A stretch of 64,000 nucleotides of DNA. Source: Pseudomonadales bacterium (GTDB lineage Bacteria > Pseudomonadota > Gammaproteobacteria > Pseudomonadales > Ketobacteraceae). The first letter of the stretch is position 1, and every line of letters begins with the position of its first letter. The notes under the pieces were generated by a model. That model worked only from the letters and a program-made list of their open reading frames with translations. It ran no database searches and was not told the origin of the DNA. Shown in pieces: positions 2,303 to 12,018 of the stretch. The stretch is from contig PAPM01000024.1 in the NCBI GenBank assembly GCA_002708905.1, positions 124,001 through 188,000 of the forward strand. Direction: 5' to 3'. The translations under genes and the position numbers were made by a program.

Positions 2303-2518
2303 ATGAGCATTCAAGTCCAGTCCGGCAATATCATGACAGAGTACACAGTGGTCTTAATTTTTATGATTGCTGTTATCGGATACGCGATCATGGGCGGTCT
2401 CGGGCAACCGGACCCGGAGGGTGGTGTTGACGGAGACCCAAACACTTCTGATCCCACTGTTATCTCCGTGATCAACGACAAGCAACATGAGTTTGCTCGC
2501 GATATATATCAGCCGTAG
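2303..2518 (+). CDS. Small Flp-like (type IVb) pilin
   Basis: 71 residues. The sequence SGNIMTEYTVVLIFMIAVIG has the Flp prepilin arrangement: a very short leader of 8 residues ending in Gly, then mature residues with Glu+5 and Tyr+6, then a hydrophobic helix. The mature protein would be about 63 residues with a short, acidic, Asp/Pro/Gly-rich tail. This is the typical size of Flp major or minor pilins. It lies just before cpaB, as flp genes often do. The processing peptidase (TadV/CpaA) is not in the window. It could be a minor pilin if the main flp gene lies upstream of the window. Confidence 0.65.
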   Translation: MSIQVQSGNIMTEYTVVLIFMIAVIGYAIMGGLGQPDPEGGVDGDPNTSDPTVISVINDKQHEFARDIYQP

Positions 2519-2529
2519 TGGTAGTTGCT

Positions 2530-3342
2530 ATGAAAACCAATAATAAAAACAGCATTATCTTGTTAATTTGTGCAATCGCGGCTGGTGTCGGTGGTTGGTA
2601 TCTGTCATCCAATCATATCCAGAAGGAAATCTCTTCCTACAAGTCCAGCTTTGAATCAGAGCGAGAAGCTATAGATGTCGTAGTAGCTAAGCGAAATCTC
2701 GCTGTGGGGGATGAGATCAATACTACGACGGCATCTATTCGTAAAATTCCTCGTATATATGTTCCTGCGGAAGCAATATTGCCTGGACAATTTCAAACCA
2801 TTAAAGGTCGGCAACTGGTACATCCGGTGAGAGCGGGAGAACCTTTGATGGCTCTGCATATTAGCCAGGTAAAGGTAGAAGGACTAGCCAGTCTGTTGCG
2901 TGAGGGAGAAAGAGCGGTCACTTTGCCTGTTTCGAAGTTGGATACTTTTTCAGGGTTTCTGGCTCCGGGTGATTACGTTGATTTAATGATCACGCTGAAG
3001 GATGGTGCCAACAAAAGAACCGTACCGCTTGCACAGAATTTAAGAGTGCTGGCGACGGGTACCGACCTGGATGATGGAATTCCAGAGAAGGGGAGCGGTC
3101 GATACAGTGAAATTACCGTTGGGGTTTCACCGCTATATGCAACCAGGCTGATCCATGCACAGACAGTGGGAGATATCAGCCTGCTGTTGCGCCGCCCCGA
3201 AGATGAGTCTGACCGATTTGAAGACTATGTAACTCTGGAGAATCTCATCGATATTCCGAATGAGGCAAAGCCAGAACCACCTGCTCAGCCAAAGAAAAAT
3301 GCCTGGGGGTTTGAGGTCATTCGCGGCGGCAAGCGTTCATAA
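2530..3342 (+). CDS. cpaB: Flp pilus assembly protein CpaB (RcpC)
   Basis: About 270 residues. There is one N-terminal membrane helix (SIILLICAIAAGVGGWYL), then a SAF-type domain (DVVVAKRNLAVGDEINTTT, residues about 45-110) and the CpaB/RcpC domain with GERAVTLPVSKLDTFSGFLAPGDYVD in two runs near residues 125-150. CpaB is the periplasmic partner of the Tad secretin. I chose ATG 2530; a GTG at 2518 overlaps the preceding stop and would add four residues, and both are possible. The C-terminus has a proline-rich stretch followed by a basic end. It sits immediately upstream of cpaC in the usual order. Confidence 0.9.
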   Translation: MKTNNKNSIILLICAIAAGVGGWYLSSNHIQKEISSYKSSFESEREAIDVVVAKRNLAVGDEINTTTASIRKIPRIYVPAEAILPGQFQTIKGRQLVHPVRAGEPLMALHISQVKVEGLASLLREGERAVTLPVSKLDTFSGFLAPGDYVDLMITLKDGANKRTVPLAQNLRVLATGTDLDDGIPEKGSGRYSEITVGVSPLYATRLIHAQTVGDISLLLRRPEDESDRFEDYVTLENLIDIPNEAKPEPPAQPKKNAWGFEVIRGGKRS

Positions 3343-3369: not shown

Positions 3370-4644
3370 ATGATCAAGACTTCCCTGCGGACGCTGGTGT
3401 CTGCATTCCTGCTCGTATTATCTATGTGTTTGCCAAAAGCCTATGCTGCAGATGATGCTTATTCAGGTACCGTCAACATTATTCAGGGACAGACCCGTTT
3501 AATGCCCTATCCTGGGGTAAATCGCGTTTCTATTGGTCATCCGGACATTGCAAACGCGCAACCCACCGGACCGGATGAAATTCTACTGACGGGTCTAAGC
3601 GCAGGTGTTACCGACCTGCGCATCTGGACCGATTCAGGTGAGCAAATTCGCTATCTGTTGAAAGTGGTGGATAATTCCTGGGTGCAAATTCTGGAAGTCG
3701 CGAACATCGTGCTTGCTGATGTCGAGGGTGTGAATGCACGTGAAGAGAATGGAATCGTCTTTATCGAAGGAAGAATCCTACGCGAGCAGGATATTCCAAT
3801 TATCGAAGATATGAAGAAAAAACTCAGCAAGGAAGTGAGCGGGGGCACAGTAGTATTTAATATCGTTCGTCCAAAAGTGAGCTTGCAGGCAATGATTCTA
3901 CTGGATGTTCAAGTGGTGGAAGTACGCCGCGATGACTTGCTGAATTTGGGGATAGAATGGGGTTCAAGTGCCAATGGTCCCTTCTATAACTTCTCGGGGG
4001 AAATACACGGCACCTTGGACACGCAGAAGATATCTTCTTTATTTGGAATCAATACCGGAGTGGCCTCCACCATAAATATTCTGCAGTCCAATGGTATCGC
4101 CAGGGTGCTGGCCCAGCCCAAGCTGGTTACGAAAAGTGGTTCAAAGGCTGAGTTCCTGGCTGGTGGTGAAATTCCGATTCCCATTCGTGGAGGGAACGGC
4201 GAGCTTACGGTAGAGTTTAAACAAGTCGGGGTGATTTTGGAATTTGAACCAGTCGCAGACCCGGACGGGTTTATCAACACAAAAATTAATGTAGAAGTCA
4301 GTGCAGTAGATGAGAGTGTAGAAGTGTTGGATATCCCCGGATTCATCACCCGCAAGACGAATATGGAAATGAACGTGCAGACGGGGCAGGCTATGGTGAT
4401 TTCCGGGATGCTCCAGGCTCAGGATAGTAAATCTGTGGCAAAAATGCCTGGTTTGGGGTCAATCCCAATTTTAGGCGAATTGTTCAAATCCCGTGATTTC
4501 AGAGAAAACACCACTGAGCTGGTGATCTTTGTTACCCCTTATCTCGTAGACCCGGATAGCAAGCGTAATCAGGATATGCTGGAATACGCTGACAAGTTAA
4601 GCTCCGACGCCAGCGAAGATATGAAATACAGCATTTTTGATTGA
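3370..4644 (+). CDS. cpaC: Tad pilus outer-membrane secretin CpaC (RcpA)
   Basis: 424 residues with a signal peptide (cleavage near AYA|ADD, residue 26). The N-terminal pilus-formation domain (SGTVNIIQGQTRLMPYPGV, about 32-105) is followed by a BON-like segment (about 107-160). The secretin core starts near residue 180 and includes VLAQPKLVTKSGSKAEFLAG, the strand GVILEFEPVADPDG and the family signature near the end (KMPGLGSIPILGELFKSR). It should form the outer-membrane channel through which the Flp pilus passes. Its length is normal for CpaC. An AAGGAT-like ribosome site precedes the ATG. Confidence 0.95.
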   Translation: MIKTSLRTLVSAFLLVLSMCLPKAYAADDAYSGTVNIIQGQTRLMPYPGVNRVSIGHPDIANAQPTGPDEILLTGLSAGVTDLRIWTDSGEQIRYLLKVVDNSWVQILEVANIVLADVEGVNAREENGIVFIEGRILREQDIPIIEDMKKKLSKEVSGGTVVFNIVRPKVSLQAMILLDVQVVEVRRDDLLNLGIEWGSSANGPFYNFSGEIHGTLDTQKISSLFGINTGVASTINILQSNGIARVLAQPKLVTKSGSKAEFLAGGEIPIPIRGGNGELTVEFKQVGVILEFEPVADPDGFINTKINVEVSAVDESVEVLDIPGFITRKTNMEMNVQTGQAMVISGMLQAQDSKSVAKMPGLGSIPILGELFKSRDFRENTTELVIFVTPYLVDPDSKRNQDMLEYADKLSSDASEDMKYSIFD

Positions 4645-4666
4645 TGCAGTATTACAGGGCATTCGC

Positions 4667-6328
4667 ATGTTGAAATTCGAAGTTATAGACAGCAATAAGA
4701 ATAAGACAATTTTCGAGTTTCCCCCCGGAAAGGTGATTCTTGGCAAGGGGGATCATTGTGATGTGATCCTGACCGACAATCATGTGTCGAGAAATCATGC
4801 TGAAATTCTGGTGGACACAAAGAGTGCAAAGCTAAGTGATTTGAACAGTACCAATGGAACCTGGGTTAACGGAGAGAGATTGTTTTCTGACCTTTTATTA
4901 TCAGAAGGCGATGTGCTCCGGTTTGGTGAGATATCCGTACGCATCAGTCAAGTTCCGAAGATCAATTCAGCTTTCGAAGAAGGCGTGGATCGTCGCCACC
5001 AGATGGATTTGGTGAAGCAGGAAAGTGAAGAACTGGTTACGCTCAAGCGCCGTATTCACTCATTGATACTCGACTATCTTGATCTTCGTAAGCGTGCCAA
5101 TCTGCAGACGATGGATCAGGATGAGCTCCGTATTGAAGCTGAAAAGGCGACCCGGGAAATCATCAGAGACCATGTTGATCGTATACCGGATGGCGTAAGT
5201 AAGGCTGAACTGCAGCGGCAGGTAGTAGCGGAAGCCGTCGGACTCGGTGCATTGGAGCCACTAGTCAATGACGATGCGGTGACGGAAATCATGGTGAACG
5301 GGCCTGATCAGATTTATGTTGAACGGGACGGTCGGCTGACACTGTCACAAAGCCGTTTTTCCAGCACGCAATCCTTGTTAGCGGTCATTGACCGTATCGT
5401 GGCACCATTGGGACGGCGAATTGATGAAAGTTCGCCGATGGTGGACGCTCGTTTGCCAGATGGTTCACGGGTAAATGCTATTATCCCACCGCTGGCGCTC
5501 AACGGCCCATCCATTACCATTCGTAAGTTCGCCAAAAAAAATCTCTATATGTCGGACTTGATCCGGTTTGGTTCCATTTCGGAACCTATGGGGCTGTTTC
5601 TCAAGGCGGCCGTAGAACTGAAACAGAACATAGTTATATCCGGTGGTACCGGATCAGGCAAAACGACCTTGTTGAACATCCTCTCGAACTTTATCGGTTC
5701 AGAAGACCGCATTATCACTATTGAGGATGCAGCTGAACTTAAGTTGAATCAGCCCCATGTCGTCGCACTTGAGAGTCGGCCGGCTAACGCTGAAGGCAAA
5801 GGCAAAGTTACAATTCGTGACCTTGTTATTAATGCGCTGCGTATGCGTCCTGATCGCATAGTGGTTGGCGAATGTCGTGGTGGCGAAGCCCTCGATATGT
5901 TGCAGGCTATGAATACTGGGCATGACGGATCACTCACAACGGGGCATGCGAATTCGCCCGGTGATTTCCTCAGCCGTTTGGAAGTAATGGTGATGATGGC
6001 CGGTGTGGACCTGCCTTCACGGGCTATCCGCGAACAGATTGCGTCAGCGGTAGATATTCTGGTTCAGCAGACACGGCTGGCTGATGGTACCCGGCGAATC
6101 ACTCATATTATGGAAGTGGTTGGATTTCAGGGTGATAATATTCAGCTTGAGCCGATATTTGAGTTTGTCAGGAAAGGGTATGATGCTAACGGAAAAATAA
6201 CAGGTTTTTTCCAACCTACCGGCTATATTCCCAAGTTTTTCAGAAATTCCATTGAGCAAGGGATCGAATTGGATGTGGCGTTGTTTGGGGGCGCAGACGC
6301 AGGTTTGTTTCCTGAGGGTGCCGCCTGA
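4667..6328 (+). CDS. tadA: TadA/CpaF secretion ATPase with N-terminal FHA domain
   Basis: 553 residues from ATG 4667 (MLKFEVID); a TTG at 4637 inside cpaC would add ten residues and looks less likely. Residues about 1-90 are an FHA domain with the phosphothreonine-binding signature (SRNHAEI and NSTNGTWVNG). The rest is the CpaF/TadA hexameric ATPase: the Walker A loop GGTGSGKTT at about 326-334, VVGECRGGEALDM at about 399 and the His-box TTGHANSPGD. It powers Flp pilus assembly at the inner membrane. Ordinary TadA lacks an FHA domain, so this fusion suggests recruitment of a phosphorylated partner. Its stop shares a base with the tadB start (TGATG). Confidence 0.93.
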   Translation: MLKFEVIDSNKNKTIFEFPPGKVILGKGDHCDVILTDNHVSRNHAEILVDTKSAKLSDLNSTNGTWVNGERLFSDLLLSEGDVLRFGEISVRISQVPKINSAFEEGVDRRHQMDLVKQESEELVTLKRRIHSLILDYLDLRKRANLQTMDQDELRIEAEKATREIIRDHVDRIPDGVSKAELQRQVVAEAVGLGALEPLVNDDAVTEIMVNGPDQIYVERDGRLTLSQSRFSSTQSLLAVIDRIVAPLGRRIDESSPMVDARLPDGSRVNAIIPPLALNGPSITIRKFAKKNLYMSDLIRFGSISEPMGLFLKAAVELKQNIVISGGTGSGKTTLLNILSNFIGSEDRIITIEDAAELKLNQPHVVALESRPANAEGKGKVTIRDLVINALRMRPDRIVVGECRGGEALDMLQAMNTGHDGSLTTGHANSPGDFLSRLEVMVMMAGVDLPSRAIREQIASAVDILVQQTRLADGTRRITHIMEVVGFQGDNIQLEPIFEFVRKGYDANGKITGFFQPTGYIPKFFRNSIEQGIELDVALFGGADAGLFPEGAA

Positions 6329-7203
6329 TGGAAACTTTGCTTTCCTTTGTTGAATCCAATGGTCAGGTGGTGTCCTTTGGATTGATATCCATCGCATTCT
6401 TTTGCATCTCCTGGGTTGTAATAGGCGTCGTTAAACAGCTTTTCTATCTCTATCAGAGAAACTTCTATCAGCAGGTGGACAAGGGGCTTCGTGATGTCGT
6501 TGTAATGATGGAGCCTGGTCAGGTTTTTACCCTTACCCTGGTAACGGCCATACTAGTGGTGCCACTCTTGTTCTGGCTGACCAATTTTGTGATTGCCTTG
6601 CTTGTGGGCGTGGTGATTTTTGTTGCACCTTCCTTTGTTCTAAAGATGATGAAGAAGCGTCGCTCAGATGAATTCGTCGAACAGCTTCCCGATGCCTTGT
6701 CATCTATTTCCTCTTCTTTGCGCTCCGGTTTGAACCTGGTAAAGGCATTCCAACAAGTAGCGAAAAACCAGCCACAGCCCCTTGCACAGGAGTTCACGCA
6801 GGTCCTGGTAGAGTATCGCGTGGGTACAGATTTAGGGGATTCGCTAGATGCTATGGCAAAGAGGATTGGACGCGATGATCTGCTCCTGATGAATTCTGCT
6901 ATCAAGATTTCCCGAACAGTGGGAGGGAACCTGGCGGATACCTTGGAAGTGTTGTCAAAAACGCTGAGAGAGAAATCCAAGGTTGAAGGAAAAATAAGGG
7001 CTTTAACATCAATGGGTAAGGCCCAAGGCACGCTTGCTACCTTTTTTCCTGTTTTTATCGGATACGTATTCTACAAAATTGAGCCTCAGGCAATGTCCAT
7101 GCTTTTTACGACAAAACTGGGTTGGATCTGGCTTTCCGTAATGATCATGATGTCCCTTATGGCTTATTTCATGATTCAGAAAATTGTGAATGTCGATGTT
7201 TAG
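6328..7203 (+). CDS. tadB: Tad inner-membrane platform protein TadB
   Basis: 291 residues, a T2SS-F type integral membrane protein. It has an N-terminal helix, two hydrophobic segments near residues 70-110, a cytoplasmic GspF-like domain with DALSSISSSLRSGLNLVKAF, and two C-terminal membrane segments after residue 230. Together with TadC it forms the inner-membrane platform on which the TadA ATPase acts. The start codon overlaps the tadA stop, and tadC follows after a few bases, which is the canonical tadABC order. Size and topology match the family. Confidence 0.93.
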   Translation: METLLSFVESNGQVVSFGLISIAFFCISWVVIGVVKQLFYLYQRNFYQQVDKGLRDVVVMMEPGQVFTLTLVTAILVVPLLFWLTNFVIALLVGVVIFVAPSFVLKMMKKRRSDEFVEQLPDALSSISSSLRSGLNLVKAFQQVAKNQPQPLAQEFTQVLVEYRVGTDLGDSLDAMAKRIGRDDLLLMNSAIKISRTVGGNLADTLEVLSKTLREKSKVEGKIRALTSMGKAQGTLATFFPVFIGYVFYKIEPQAMSMLFTTKLGWIWLSVMIMMSLMAYFMIQKIVNVDV

Positions 7204-7215
7204 GCGGTGTTCGGT

Positions 7216-8127
7216 ATGATGCAATATATCCCAATACTGCTAATGTCTTCTGCCATGGCAGTTGCAGCCTATTCCTTGGTTAACCTGTTTTTGAAAACCA
7301 GAGGTAAGACCAAGGAAGATTGGCGGGATCCACCGCCTTTAATATTTCGGCTGTTCAAACCAGTGGTGAGGCTATTCGCGTCAGATGTACGCTCAGCCAT
7401 GTCGGACAAGTTATATGGTCGCATCAATACTCGACTAAGTACGGGAGGAATGAATTACGCTATTCTGGCCGAGGAATTTTTCACCTTAAAGTTTGTTTGC
7501 CTGATTTTTATGTGCATCATTTCATACCTGCTTTTTTCCATGCCAACCGAGCAAGGCGGTGAAGTCAAGTTGATTATCATAGCCATGATTCCACTTGGAT
7601 TCTTTTATCCCGATATCTGGTTGAATGACAAAATACTTCGACGGCGTAATCGTGTCGCAAAAGAGTTTCCGTTTCTTTTGGATCTGTTGGTTTTGTCCAT
7701 GCGGGCAGGTTTGAACTACTCAACCTCTCTTGGGCAGGCAATCTCGAATTTGCCGGAGGGGCCGGTGAAGGAAGAGTTTGGCAAGTTGCTGCGGGAAATT
7801 CGGGCGGGTAAAGTGAGACGGCAAGCGCTCTTGGATCTGGCTGGGCGCATGGATACTAAGTCTATTCATAATTTCGTGGCTGCGATTAACCAGGCCGAAG
7901 AAACGGGAGGTGAAATTGTTGAAGTGCTCACTTTGCAGGCTGAGCAGCGTCGCACTGAGCGATTTAATCAGGCGGAGGAACAAGCCAACAAAGCTCCGGT
8001 AAAGATGTTACTGCCGCTTGTGCTATTTCTCTTTCCGATCATATTCATGCTCATTGGTTTCGTTTTGGTGGTCAAACTGTCGGAAACCAATTTTGTGCCC
8101 CCATTTATTGTAAATCTGCTGGTGTAG
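7216..8127 (+). CDS. tadC: Tad inner-membrane platform protein TadC
   Basis: 303 residues from ATG 7216, which has AGGCGG about eight bases upstream; GTG 7207 is an alternative that adds three residues. The protein has an N-terminal membrane helix, a hydrophobic pair near residues 95-135, the T2SS-F motif FLLDLLVLSMRAGLNYSTSL and a strong C-terminal helix (MLLPLVLFLFPIIFMLIGFV). TadC pairs with TadB in the pilus platform. The conserved ALLDLAGRMD and AEETGGEIVEVL segments are as expected. It is part of the same tightly spaced operon. Confidence 0.93.
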   Translation: MMQYIPILLMSSAMAVAAYSLVNLFLKTRGKTKEDWRDPPPLIFRLFKPVVRLFASDVRSAMSDKLYGRINTRLSTGGMNYAILAEEFFTLKFVCLIFMCIISYLLFSMPTEQGGEVKLIIIAMIPLGFFYPDIWLNDKILRRRNRVAKEFPFLLDLLVLSMRAGLNYSTSLGQAISNLPEGPVKEEFGKLLREIRAGKVRRQALLDLAGRMDTKSIHNFVAAINQAEETGGEIVEVLTLQAEQRRTERFNQAEEQANKAPVKMLLPLVLFLFPIIFMLIGFVLVVKLSETNFVPPFIVNLLV

Positions 8128-8137
8128 GTTCGTTGAC

Positions 8138-8497
8138 ATGGCAAAGGTCTATGTCAGACAACCTGGAGTCGAAGAGCTCAAGTTCACTGGATTGCAGTTT
8201 GTCCGAGTCGCAAATACATTTTGGTCGCGTTTGATCGGTTTGCTGTCCAGGAAGGGGATTGAAGCCAACGAGGGGCTATTGATTATACCTTGTTCCAGTA
8301 TCCATACTTTTTTTATGCGATTTACCATCGATCTCGTTTTTTTGGATAGAGAAAACAGGGTGTTAGGTACATGCAGTAATGTTAAGCCTAATAGGGTTAG
8401 GTTTGCGCCTCGTCGAACTCACTCTGTGCTTGAAATTGCAGAAGGTAACGTTAAGAAAACAGGAATTCACTTGGATGACTTCCTGATATTTGATTAA
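8138..8497 (+). CDS. DUF192 family protein
   Basis: 119 residues. The DUF192 pattern is clear: FWSRLIGLLSRKG, then EGLLIIPCSSIHTFFMRFTI, then DLVFLDRENRVL. The fold is a small beta barrel of unknown biochemical role. Many family members carry a signal peptide, but this one has none, so it is probably cytoplasmic. The gene starts ten bases after tadC and lies inside the pilus operon. Members of this family do turn up near Tad genes in other bacteria (from memory), so the placement is probably not accidental. No function is proposed. Confidence 0.85.
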   Translation: MAKVYVRQPGVEELKFTGLQFVRVANTFWSRLIGLLSRKGIEANEGLLIIPCSSIHTFFMRFTIDLVFLDRENRVLGTCSNVKPNRVRFAPRRTHSVLEIAEGNVKKTGIHLDDFLIFD

Positions 8498-8561
8498 ATG
8501 CTTAATACTAGAAGAATAAGATTTCGCGGCCTGGTCCCTGGGCTGCACGCAGGGCAGTGTA

Positions 8562-10151
8562 ATGAATCAGAATTCCGATAACTTTGTAGTTGAATCAACC
8601 CCCGTTCTAGATCTGAAGAAACACGGACTTGAAAAAAGTCATAGTGAGCCAGGTCTCGGTCCTGCACAGTCCTGGGATGCGGATCGTACTGAAGTGTACG
8701 CAGATATCGAGGATTCAGACGCAATTGCCTCATTAATCGCTGATACCGGCGAATCCTATCCTATTACTACTTTTCCCTTCATTATTGGTCGTGGTAGTGA
8801 ATGTGACTTGGTGTTGCAGGGTAAAGGGGTATCCCGCAAGCATGCAGAGATCGTCTTTCAATCAGGACGTTTTGTTGTTAACGATATGGAGAGCCTTAAC
8901 GGCATTAAGGTAAACGGTTACAAAGTTGCTCGCGTCATACTCGAGGAGAATGATGTAATCAAGCTGGGAGAGGTTTCCTTAAGCTTCCACTCAGGTGAGC
9001 AAACAGACGAAAGCCCTCAGGAGCAAATGCCAGCAAAAGCAGGTTTGTTTGCAAAGCAAAAGACAGGCCAGCCACAACAGGATGACACCTTTGGCCCAAG
9101 CCCCATAAAGAAAATAGCCAGTACTGTCATAATCGTATTGGCTGTGGGGATATTTGCCTATGCCGGTTTTCTTTATCTGCAGCGCGGACAGCAGGCAACA
9201 GGTGGCATTGCAATGTCTCCTACTGCACCAGCACCTACTACAGCGGCACAGAAATCTGTAGTGACTTCACCGGCACCCAGCTCCTCATCAACGGATGCGT
9301 CTACAGTGCCGGCAACAGGCCAAACCTCTCAGTCGACTGCTTCTACCCAGCCAGTTTTAAAACCTGAAGTTGCAGATTTGGCTGCCCCGCCACCATCATC
9401 GTCGATTGCTCCACCACCAAGTCTGGCCGCTGCGCCTAAGAAGCCGGAACTCAAAGAAGAGGTTTCTTCACCAACGGTTGCCCCTGAGCCTGTTATTTCC
9501 AAGCCTGCACCCGCACCCACCGCACCCAAGCCAACAGTTAATCTTAACGGCCAAGCTGCAGCAGCACAGGGTACTGCACAAAGTCTCTATATACAGGGTA
9601 AAGCACCACAGGCGCTGGACGAATTGAAGAAATACATTGGTAATGCGGCGGTGTCCAAGAGTTACCAGGATAGAGTTCGCGGTACTTATCGGGATATTGA
9701 TGCATTGTATTCTCAATACACTGATGCCCAGAAAGCATATGCCGCCGGTGACAAGGATCGAGCCTTTAGTGTCTGGACCGACTTTATGGCAAGGGAAACA
9801 GCTCTGCTTGATGGGCAGCGAAGTGTCTATAGCCGCTCAATAATGACTAAGGTTGTAGACGAATATGTAGAGCGGGGCAATCGTGCATCAAATGAAGGCG
9901 ATTATCATAGTGCCTATAGTTACTGGAATAAAGCGGTTGAGCTTGGTGATAGTGTCAGTGCCAAAATTGCGATTGATAACCTGAATAACAAGGCACGGCA
10001 ACTATATCGTCAGGCCTTGAGGCTGGAATATGTCAATACCAATAAAGCTAAGGCAATGTGGGCTGAGGTTACACAGCTGTTACCTCCCGGTACTGAATAT
10101 CATACCAAGGCAAGTGCCAAGCTTGCGTGGTATGAAAAATGGGGCAGTTAA
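8562..10151 (+). CDS. FHA domain - transmembrane - TPR-like protein
   Basis: 529 residues. An FHA domain lies at about 60-145 (FIIGRGSECDLVLQ, SRKHAEI, NDMESLNGIKVNG). A single membrane helix lies at about 187-206 (STVIIVLAVGIFAYAGFLYL). Next comes a linker of about 130 residues rich in Pro, Ala, Ser and Thr, and a C-terminal helical region (about 340-529) with TPR-like repeats (QSLYIQGKAPQALDELKKYI and ASNEGDYHSAYSYWNKAVEL). The FHA part should face the cytoplasm and read phosphothreonine, and the TPR part should face the periplasm. It may pass a signal across the membrane or scaffold the pilus machine. Its stop overlaps the next start (TAATG). Confidence 0.8.
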   Translation: MNQNSDNFVVESTPVLDLKKHGLEKSHSEPGLGPAQSWDADRTEVYADIEDSDAIASLIADTGESYPITTFPFIIGRGSECDLVLQGKGVSRKHAEIVFQSGRFVVNDMESLNGIKVNGYKVARVILEENDVIKLGEVSLSFHSGEQTDESPQEQMPAKAGLFAKQKTGQPQQDDTFGPSPIKKIASTVIIVLAVGIFAYAGFLYLQRGQQATGGIAMSPTAPAPTTAAQKSVVTSPAPSSSSTDASTVPATGQTSQSTASTQPVLKPEVADLAAPPPSSSIAPPPSLAAAPKKPELKEEVSSPTVAPEPVISKPAPAPTAPKPTVNLNGQAAAAQGTAQSLYIQGKAPQALDELKKYIGNAAVSKSYQDRVRGTYRDIDALYSQYTDAQKAYAAGDKDRAFSVWTDFMARETALLDGQRSVYSRSIMTKVVDEYVERGNRASNEGDYHSAYSYWNKAVELGDSVSAKIAIDNLNNKARQLYRQALRLEYVNTNKAKAMWAEVTQLLPPGTEYHTKASAKLAWYEKWGS

Positions 10152-10681
10152 TGTATCGGGTGCTTCTCCTTGCATTATGCCTGTTTAGTATATGGGGTTG
10201 TGCCAGCAATTCGCCGGTGGCAGATAAAAGCCTGAAAGAACGTGCTGAAATCCAAAATCAACTCAACCAAGAGCTGAAAGCTCACTATGATAAGGGTGAA
10301 GCGTTCTATAAATCCGGCCAAATGGATAACGCGCGTGTCGAATTTACCGCCATGCTTGATTTGAAACCGGATGAACCTAATGCTAATTATCGTTTGGGTA
10401 CTATCGCCTTTAAAGAGGGGCAATTCGATGAATCCGCTGCTTATTTTGAGGCGGTAATTCATGTGGAACCCAAGAATTTTAAGGCTCATTATAATTTGGC
10501 CGCGATTCGGTTGATGCAAGCTGAAAATCATTTTAAGTACTATGCGGCTTTGGTAGAGCCAGAGACTGATCTCGGTAAAGTATCTAAGCTGATAGCTGAT
10601 ATTGATGCTTTCAACAACAAACGTTTGCCCAGAGGTAATGAGCGCACTTTGGAGCAATTGGCGACATCATTAAAAAAATAA
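10151..10681 (+). CDS. TPR lipoprotein, TadD-like
   Basis: About 176 residues from ATG 10151, which overlaps the preceding stop. The N-terminus LLLALCLFSIWGCASN is a lipoprotein signal with a Cys after WG. Two TPR units follow (about 50-120: GEAFYKSGQMDNARVEFTAM and GTIAFKEGQFDESAAYFEAV). This matches the TadD pilotin/lipoprotein type, which assists localisation of the Tad secretin, though TadD is usually longer. Outer-membrane anchoring is likely, since residues after the Cys are Ala-Ser-Asn and not Asp. The function is inferred from family and operon. Confidence 0.75.
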   Translation: MYRVLLLALCLFSIWGCASNSPVADKSLKERAEIQNQLNQELKAHYDKGEAFYKSGQMDNARVEFTAMLDLKPDEPNANYRLGTIAFKEGQFDESAAYFEAVIHVEPKNFKAHYNLAAIRLMQAENHFKYYAALVEPETDLGKVSKLIADIDAFNNKRLPRGNERTLEQLATSLKK

Positions 10682-10684
10682 AAA

Positions 10685-11350
10685 ATGGTACACGTAGTCA
10701 CTCTTAGTCAAAAAGGGTCTAAATCGGCTGTCAATGAAGATGCTTGTCTGGCGTTGGCCAACAAGGGGATATTTGTCGTCGCCGATGGAGTGGGAGGTGG
10801 GCCGGCTGGGGATTTCGCCTCTCGTACTCTTGTGCAAGAAATAGAAGGCTTTTGTATCGGAAGCTCCAATCCGGAAGAAGATCTTTTGGAAGCTATTCAG
10901 GCTGCAAATCTGAAAATATTTCAGGCAGGCCAAGATCCAAAGTTGACTGGTATGGCCACTACCATAGCTGCAATTGTTCTGCGAAATGAATCTTTGCTGG
11001 TCTGTCATGTTGGAGACAGCCGGGTTTACCTGTTCAGAAATGGCGATATGAGCGCATTAACTCGGGATCATTCCAAGTTGATTGCCAAGAATGAGGTGCA
11101 GAAACAGGTTGTAACGAATGCGCTGGGTATAAGGGAATCGGTCAAGGTAGAAATTAATCGTTTTTCCTTTTCCACGGGTGATCAATTGTTATTGATGACT
11201 GATGGTATCAGTGATGCCGTGGATGATCGCAGGATTCATGAATTATTTACCCTTTCTGGTCGCTCAACTTCCGAGAAACTTCGATCTTTGATTGAGGAGA
11301 GTGAGCGTTCAGGTGGAAAGGACGATAAAACAGTGCTCTGTGTATTTTGA
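10685..11350 (+). CDS. PP2C-family serine/threonine phosphatase
   Basis: 221 residues, the size of bacterial Stp1-type phosphatases. Metal-binding and catalytic motifs appear in order: SAVNEDA (D19), VVADGVGGGPAGDFAS (D34, G35), GMATTIAAIVL, LLVCHVGDSRVYLFRNGDMS, LLMTDGISDAVDD and GGKDDKTVLCV near the end. The last motif is usually GxxDNxT; here Asn is replaced by Asp. It should remove phosphate from Ser/Thr, and the likely clients are partners of the two FHA domains in this operon. No matching Ser/Thr kinase gene is in the window. It starts three bases after the lipoprotein gene. Confidence 0.88.
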   Translation: MVHVVTLSQKGSKSAVNEDACLALANKGIFVVADGVGGGPAGDFASRTLVQEIEGFCIGSSNPEEDLLEAIQAANLKIFQAGQDPKLTGMATTIAAIVLRNESLLVCHVGDSRVYLFRNGDMSALTRDHSKLIAKNEVQKQVVTNALGIRESVKVEINRFSFSTGDQLLLMTDGISDAVDDRRIHELFTLSGRSTSEKLRSLIEESERSGGKDDKTVLCVF

Positions 11351-11370
11351 TATGCACAGAAGGAGCTCCA

Positions 11371-12018
11371 ATGAAAACAACAAAAGCTGTGGATCGTTTT
11401 GGGCAGTCTGGTGTTTCCATGATGGAAACGATGCTGGTTATGCCAATTATGCTGTTGATTGGGTTCGGAATTGTGCATGCGGGTTTGGTATATCAGGCTC
11501 AGGCCAATCTGGAGTATGCTGCTTTGATGGCTGCCAGGGTAGGTGCAGCGTCCAGTATTGATGTCACGGCAATGAGAACAGAAGCAGAATATCGTATGAG
11601 AGCCACGACTGGTGTTGATGGGAGCGATTTGGATGCTGTTTCAAAGGAGTTCGAAAACATTCGAATTACTGTACTCAATCCCAGTCGTGAGATGTTTGAT
11701 ACCTGCGGCGAGAGGCCAATCAATACGAATGATTGTGTAAACGACAATAATTGCGAAATCCCCTATTTTGGCCAACAGTTTTATATTCGTGGTAATGAAT
11801 GTGCTGGGGCCAGCATACAAGATGCAAATATCCTGCGTATTCGCGTGTCTTATACATACAACAGCCGTATTCCTTTTTTAAATAATATTCGATTTATCGG
11901 TGAGCCCGGTCGTGAAGAGGAAGAAGGGATAGATATAACCGCAATAGCGACTGTTCGCATGCAGACCCCGGCACGCTTAACACTCGCAAATCAGGATAAT
12001 ATCATTTCAACGGAGTAA
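11371..12018 (+). CDS. TadE-like pseudopilin, last gene of the Tad operon
   Basis: 215 residues from ATG 11371, preceded by a strong ribosome site (AAGGAG at 11359-11364); an upstream in-frame ATG at 11347 lies inside the phosphatase gene and is less likely. The N-terminus GQSGVSMMETMLVMPIML has the TadE motif (Gly then Glu at +5) and a long hydrophobic helix, followed by QAQANLEYAALMAARVGA. The C-terminal domain has four cysteines (CGERPINTNDC, NNCEI, NECAG). It is a predicted minor pseudopilin. The 3' end overlaps the convergent oxidoreductase gene by 12 bases, so no terminator fits between them. Confidence 0.8.
   Translation: MKTTKAVDRFGQSGVSMMETMLVMPIMLLIGFGIVHAGLVYQAQANLEYAALMAARVGAASSIDVTAMRTEAEYRMRATTGVDGSDLDAVSKEFENIRITVLNPSREMFDTCGERPINTNDCVNDNNCEIPYFGQQFYIRGNECAGASIQDANILRIRVSYTYNSRIPFLNNIRFIGEPGREEEEGIDITAIATVRMQTPARLTLANQDNIISTE

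Follow-up and report, generated by a model that had tools for sequence, protein, structure and literature searches.

How one Tad ATPase learns when to extend a pilus, to retract it or to stop is, to our knowledge, not settled. The locus studied here raises this question in a window of 64,000 nucleotides (the whole stretch of DNA that was analysed) from a Ketobacteraceae bacterium (assembly GCA_002708905.1, contig PAPM01000024.1, positions 124,001 to 188,000), which is part of contig C23 in a genome of 5.4 Mb. The original prediction on this DNA had placed a TadA ATPase fused to an FHA domain, a protein with an FHA domain, a membrane helix and a TPR part (here FHA-TPR), and a PP2C phosphatase in the same Tad operon (4667-11350), which Pfam matches and open reading frames (ORFs) confirm. 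It had also suggested that Ser/Thr phosphorylation switches pilus assembly. The kinase described below and its syntenic position support part of that suggestion, and the switching itself we propose on the basis of sequence. The locus probably carries a dedicated phosphothreonine circuit that switches the pilus motor. Coordinates without a prefix are window positions; L009 denotes the 16000 bases preceding the window and other L codes are fetched stretches, G codes are genomes, and f codes are families, with the window's genome belonging to f1.

A kinase adjoins the Tad operon

A Ser/Thr kinase gene (L009:13327-14295, minus strand) is located 1.7 kb before the window starts and is transcribed divergently from the pilin gene. 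It encodes 322 residues with a PF00069 match (E 1.9e-30; C23:121345-122100, minus strand), and the ATP lysine and the HGD, Asn and DFG motifs are all intact in its sequence. The original prediction had seen no kinase in the window and had looked to the upstream DNA for one of Hanks type; on both counts it was right, and part of the system does lie upstream. It had also named a genome lacking kinases as grounds for abandoning the idea, and because the kinase sits next to the operon in a syntenic place, that objection falls. A hydrophobicity scan of the kinase found no strongly hydrophobic stretch, and the N-terminus, MNLTWLFSWRSKK, looks, together with its counterparts, like a short basic amphipathic membrane anchor.

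Relatives of the kinase include proteins of Ketobacter sp. BinB_TS13 (91% identity) and gamma proteobacterium HdN1. Those with HGY instead of HGD (L068:2082-3041 and L069:3101-4057) could perhaps be pseudokinases. Kinase matches outside the class (L117-L122) are weak; by the domain models used, L120 is the one stretch among them that has FHA and PP2C genes, and it has no Tad genes. At L135, a locus without FHA-TPR, the adjoining kinase is an ordinary divergent one. The generic kinase model was built partly from stretches with in-frame stops and may miss kinases for that reason.

An ordinary Tad locus might simply have come to lie next to unrelated signalling genes. The genome has 19 PF00069 matches (16 above the cut-off), 12 FHA and 6 PP2C_2 matches, so chance encounters are possible. 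Across distant families, however, FHA-TPR is flanked by DUF192 and TadD, and the pilin gene has the kinase as its neighbour; on this synteny a chance neighbourhood was rejected, and we regard it as extremely improbable.

Conservation and distribution of the cassette

Thirty-two FHA-TPR genes were found, 28 with Tad-specific neighbours, three without, and one (L146, encoding FHA-TPR, a TadD-like protein and PP2C) on a contig of 3.2 kb, too short to tell and excluded from the Tad-linked set. The 28 Tad-linked loci belong to 11 family codes, f1 and, beyond it, f12, f17, f22, f56, f89, f101, f113, f130, f163 and f193. All 20 loci that extend to the pilin gene have the kinase; the other eight stop short of that gene (L053, L054, L055, L066, L130, L131, L144 and L145). 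The kinase of G071 is at the opposite end of the operon, and in G025 and G075 it adjoins the pilin gene on another contig. In 13 further f1 genomes (G001-G006 and G008-G014) FHA-TPR and PP2C occur in 13/13 Tad loci, and the kinase is seen in the 11 stretches that extend far enough (L042-L052), L053 and L054 being cut. For G007, whose genome is 54% complete, the matches were weak and confined to the FHA part, and its locus was left out.

The PP2C gene (10685-11350, plus strand; PF13672, PP2C_2, E 5.6e-19) encodes metal-site Asp motifs that are present in the alignments. It occurs in 17 of the 28 loci, namely all 14 of f1 and those of G071, G257 and G505, and was rejected as a constant part. By these counts the kinase and FHA-TPR form a conserved Tad cassette, to which PP2C is accessory.

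In a survey of 244 genomes of the order, 17 have a kinase orthologue (E<1e-70) and 17 have FHA-TPR, G045 at 1.7e-41 and the other 16 at E<1e-60. Fifteen genomes have both, and 13 have both plus a closely related FHA-TadA (E<1e-78). A profile of the FHA-TadA N-terminus (E<=1e-25) matches 23 of 274 genomes sampled from the class; among the 22 other than the window's genome, nine carry FHA-TPR, in G479 on a second contig. The C-terminal domain of FHA-TPR was detected in 11/369 genomes of a second class sample. Its profile (E<=1e-10) found one genome in 398 from the phylum, and since this was the window's own, the cassette is a rarity among the genomes sampled there.

The three FHA-TPR genes without Tad-specific neighbours are those of L057, L058 and L059. 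In another explanation the kinase module serves envelope or lipoprotein sensing, through a MORN lipoprotein, an RND pump and an Lnt-like enzyme, and the pilus is one of several outputs. A MORN-repeat protein is encoded next to the kinase (L009:12077-13321, plus strand; MORN E 5e-86), its true start probably further inside the ORF. G032 has kinase, FHA-TPR and TPR lipoprotein genes with no Tad genes in view (L057:10839-14719), and G046 has RND, MORN, FHA-TPR and TPR lipoprotein genes in a row (L059:1974-9104); the module may thus exist independently of Tad. L059 was placed in the Tad-unlinked group since the gene ahead of FHA-TPR encodes MORN instead of DUF192 and since G046 lacks an FHA-TadA match; the contig of L059 stops shortly past the TPR lipoprotein gene. 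In f89, f101, f130 and f193, moreover, a gene of about 660-720 codons separates pilin and kinase. Pfam scans of three such genes of about 670 codons (L124:17043-19109, L127:1381-3387 and L132:1791-3779) matched CN_hydrolase in all, LNT_N in two, and a C39-peptidase-like end in one. Against this stand the Tad-specific neighbours of 28/32 FHA-TPR genes, and a TadD-like protein of G257 that is fused to MORN repeats (L123:3736-4608), a link between the pilus and the MORN protein encoded close to the kinase. We consider envelope sensing as the primary role quite improbable.

The FHA-TPR protein and its threonine motifs

FHA-TPR (8562-10151, plus strand) has an FHA domain (8781-8969; E 4.3e-19), a single strong hydrophobic stretch at residues 185-206 (membrane helix at about 9114-9179) and a helical-repeat domain in its predicted periplasmic part (9549-10148; residues 330-529). 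The predicted FHA domain and membrane helix are thus borne out, and the TPR part is indicated by structure: a Pfam scan found no TPR family in the protein at E 0.001, AlphaFold folds residues 330-529 into helices throughout, with a predicted local distance difference test score (pLDDT) of 92.7, and the closest solved structures are TPR proteins (P58IPK, Z 9.7, root-mean-square deviation 8.0 over 191 residues), a similarity of a size that can arise by chance between helical repeats and may reflect only a shared arrangement. For residues 1-161, AlphaFold without an alignment gave a pLDDT of only 33.6.

The FHA domain of FHA-TPR has the canonical phosphothreonine-binding residues; among the 31 proteins whose tail is complete, 27 have Arg, Ser, Arg, His and Asn at the pocket positions. 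The solved structures closest to this domain are GarA (6i2q, E 3.1e-9) and a GGDEF protein (6hc0, E 3.2e-9); GR, SRxH and SLNG align with GarA 6i2q, in which SLNG is identical. As to whether the FHA residues at this locus are fit for phosphothreonine, FHA-TPR is thus canonical and GarA-like, and the FHA domain of TadA departs at the pocket Arg, where it has Lys.

Two threonine motifs precede the FHA domain in the cytoplasmic tail, T13 in ESTPVLDL (a T-P motif; codon 8598-8600) and T43 in DRTEVY (T-x-V/L-hydrophobic; codon 8688-8690), and in both the +3 position is often hydrophobic. In the close set T43 and E44 are invariant (18/18 proteins), with an average identity of 54% over residues 1-57. 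The TP motif is present in 28/28 Tad-linked FHA-TPR proteins versus 0/3 Tad-unlinked ones, and is kept in the Tad loci L130, L132 and L145 despite an altered own FHA. The T43-type motif is found in 25/27 proteins with an intact own FHA versus 1/4 in which that domain is altered (L130 has the motif; L058, L132 and L145 lack it). On the tree TP changes twice and T43 three times. These comparisons cover 32 FHA-TPR proteins, the tail of L146 being cut; the motifs were defined after inspection, judged by eye and set by hand for the tree test. Because the presence of each motif follows its matching reader, Tad linkage for TP and the own FHA for T43, we assign T13 to the FHA domain of TadA and T43 to the protein's own, a hypothesis suggested by this pattern rather than one that has passed a test.

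The FHA domain of TadA

The TadA ORF is open from TTG 4637 to 6328, and most homologues begin where ATG 4667 stands, which is most likely the start (TadA/CpaF, 4667-6328, plus strand). The protein has an N-terminal FHA domain (PF00498, E 1.3e-17; about 4733-4927) followed by a T2SSE match (E 1.4e-63). In its phosphothreonine pocket Ser, Arg, His and Asn are present, and Lys (codon 4745-4747) replaces the canonical pocket Arg. Pocket Ser, His and Asn are all kept in 24/24 TadA rows with FHA-TPR versus 0/27 without it. An FHA fold on TadA need not, then, imply phosphothreonine binding, since each of the 27 module-less TadAs counted has lost at least one of the three.

The count began with 58 rows, of which four were dropped. 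L112 and L116 duplicate L123 and L133, L120 is no TadA, and L064 is too short (262 residues); this last row has an intact pocket and comes from a genome with FHA-TPR (G075). Among the remaining 54, L063, L082 and L125 were left unscored for the module, and L060 was scored positive since its genome carries FHA-TPR on a different contig. The module-less rows include orphan second TadA copies (L073, L074 and L088) and a second Tad locus (L072), from genomes with the module elsewhere, as well as L087 and L136, whose contigs end in or shortly after TadA. Five rows inspected later agree with the pattern, two with FHA-TPR (L145 is intact) and three without it in the locus (L147, L148 and L016, not intact). 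L016 holds a second, orphan TadA of the window's genome with a degenerate FHA pocket (L016:4358-5947, contig C19). Another PP2C gene (L016:7064-7801) lies about 1.1 kb from it, with no further Tad genes in that stretch.

In a tree of the ATPase part, the module-bearing TadAs cluster, and within this cluster lies L078 (G243), where cassette and pocket have both been lost. The association of TadA pocket and FHA-TPR was rejected as proof, since the tree holds only two changes; we regard it as suggestive only.

The FHA-like cytoplasmic domain of type III secretion system (T3SS) ring proteins is a phospho-independent scaffold, and the FHA domains here might likewise tie TadA to the membrane complex, with the kinase and PP2C acting elsewhere and merely travelling with the locus. 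Both FHA domains exceed the cut-off of the T3SS family PF16697, the pocket Lys of TadA would fit such a role, and G892 retains an FHA-TPR gene with a degenerate FHA. A pure scaffold, however, would need none of the pocket Ser, His and Asn that TadA keeps together only with FHA-TPR, and the threonine motifs are conserved within an otherwise loose tail. We therefore think a scaffold unlikely.

A proposed phosphothreonine switch

The switch that we favour builds on observed genes, domains, catalytic residues, most of the phosphothreonine-pocket residues, and co-inheritance. The kinase, which lacks a membrane helix and has the anchor-like N-terminus, would phosphorylate threonine in the cytoplasmic tail of FHA-TPR, PP2C would reverse this, and the FHA domains of FHA-TPR and the TadA motor would read the mark. 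Phosphorylation would either dock the TadA hexamer at an envelope complex of FHA-TPR, TadD and the secretin or free it from there, and docking or release would decide between pilus extension and retraction. That FHA-TPR is the substrate, how FHA domains and sites are paired, and the sign of the effect are what we infer; in the detail that we prefer, pT43 would be bound by the GarA-like FHA of FHA-TPR itself and pT13 by the FHA of TadA. As a complete two-threonine, two-reader code the scheme is tentative and rather unlikely to hold in full: T43 would address the own FHA and T13 the six FHA domains of the TadA hexamer, and a multivalent phospho-dock on the transenvelope protein would recruit or release the motor, setting extension against retraction.

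Several observations weigh against the switch. PP2C is absent from 11/28 loci (three of them, L066, L132 and L133, cut by a contig or fetch end). The pocket-Arg position is Lys in 23 and Ser in one (L132) of the 24 TadA rows with FHA-TPR, and because these residues replace the Arg of phosphothreonine-binding FHA domains, binding by TadA is not assured. The TadA tree needs two changes of each trait, and the independent-pair test has two pairs (p 0.5); T43 and the own FHA give two pairs on starred branches and three on all, which is not significant. In f89 (L127 and L128) the own FHA is intact and T43 is missing; in G892 the own FHA is degenerate while the gene and the TadA pocket are retained; G046 keeps T43 and the FHA with no kinase match at E<=1e-30; and the kinase relatives of G030 and G103 have HGY for HGD, with no Tad genes in view. 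Other kinases of the genome, and its two FHA proteins of the type VI secretion system (T6SS), could cross-talk.

If the switch exists, control of the Tad motor would be directly testable through point mutations, the FHA domain on some TadA motors would be explained, and phosphothreonine control of the T6SS kind would extend to pili.

Layout of the Tad operon

The operon begins at L009:14683, 1.3 kb ahead of the window's first base, and ends at 12018, all on the plus strand, with closely spaced genes and several overlaps. It opens with a Flp-like pilin candidate (L009:14683-14994; pilin-like GQGMSEYLVIVGLLAV, no fitting Pfam match) and a TadG-like gene named by position and appearance (from L009:15119, its 3' end at 1-720). 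These are followed by a TadE-like gene placed by position and conservation (717-1547), a conserved Tad-locus gene recognised by synteny, role not assigned (1574-2284), and a small gene of pilin-like appearance (2303-2518), the three without Pfam matches. RcpC/CpaB (2518-3342; PF16976, E 3.6e-21) and the secretin RcpA/CpaC (3370-4644; PF00263, E 3.3e-41) precede FHA-TadA, after which come TadB (6328-7203; PF00482, E 2.8e-15), TadC (7207-8127; PF00482, E 7.5e-18) and a DUF192 protein (8138-8497; PF02643, E 1.1e-18). DUF192 genes are frequent in these Tad loci, including those without the kinase cassette. Beyond FHA-TPR, a TadD-like TPR lipoprotein (10139-10681; TPR_1, E 3.6e-11; lipobox-like start) and PP2C lead to TadE (11347-12018; PF07811, E 1.3e-9), which overlaps PP2C by 4 bases.

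Pfam matches thus provide secretin, CpaB, TadA ATPase, TadB and TadC, the set by which a Tad system is recognised, and PF07811 in 11347-12018 provides the TadE/TadG pseudopilin; TadG-like and the first TadE-like protein are placed by position only. The original prediction had also seen neither tadZ nor tadV in the window. We see no candidate ORF for TadZ/CpaE in the operon; a TadZ_N search gave 0 matches, and none of its 14 controls gave a signal either. No TadV was found, the genome's single A24 peptidase match sitting behind a PilC-like gene on another contig (L143).

Comparison with known systems

A functional parallel is the T6SS threonine pathway of PpkA, PppA and Fha. In A. tumefaciens, TssL is reported to be phosphorylated at Thr14 in a PpkA-dependent manner, and Fha to bind it through the phosphothreonine motif (PMC3953482). 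The double mutant R30A S46A of fha loses Hcp secretion completely (PMC3953482), which is why the Lys of TadA matters. As here, a machine-linked Hanks kinase, a PP2C phosphatase and an FHA reader are combined with a membrane protein bearing a cytoplasmic threonine site; the machine differs, and here FHA domains are on an ATPase and a membrane TPR-like protein. The TagH model TIGR03354 gives FHA-TPR 38.3 bits and TadA 32.5 bits against a cut-off of 120.25, so the locus may work like this pathway and is not a member of it. The window's genome also encodes two TagH-type T6SS FHA proteins (L013:4640-6058 and L014:4753-6438), each near a TssK gene.

GarA is not known to have a membrane helix or TPR part. 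Like GarA and OdhI, FHA-TPR has a conserved threonine motif N-terminal to a similar FHA domain with phosphothreonine-binding residues, its phosphorylation and intramolecular binding being putative. In GarA, phosphorylation is reported at an ETTS motif that precedes the FHA domain (PMC12321487); that motif belongs to an actinobacterial metabolic regulator, and the T43 motif is not of the ETTS kind. The NCBIfam OdhI model gives FHA-TPR 38.7 bits against a cut-off of 200, which puts it outside that equivalog.

Archaella are type IV filaments, akin to pili. In Sulfolobus, the ArnA-ArnB-ArnC system, a kinase with an FHA protein, is described as controlling the archaellum (PMC12852372), a functional parallel in which such a pair regulates a filament.

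FHA-fused motors occur in other Tad systems too. Class III CpaF/TadA proteins, described in a survey of CpaF architectures as mostly betaproteobacterial, have an N-terminal FHA that binds phosphothreonine, a linker and the CpaF core (PMC12019362). The window's TadA shares the FHA N-terminal to the CpaF core, with phosphothreonine binding predicted only; unlike that class as described, the module-less TadAs here lack the full Ser, His and Asn set (27/27), and intact pockets go with the kinase/FHA-TPR cassette. The Tad-like Kil system of Myxococcus likewise has an FHA-fused ATPase, KilF, with several further FHA proteins, for which its authors suggest a signalling cascade; its main text does not mention a kinase or phosphatase, and states that TadG, RcpB and TadD are missing (PMC8460266). 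FHA-fused TadA and FHA-rich Tad systems are therefore already published (PMC12019362, PMC8460266). A limited literature search, mostly at title level, recognised no description of the Tad-linked kinase/FHA-TPR/PP2C cassette, and what appears to be new is a Tad pilus with a predicted, hard-wired phosphothreonine circuit made of these three parts.

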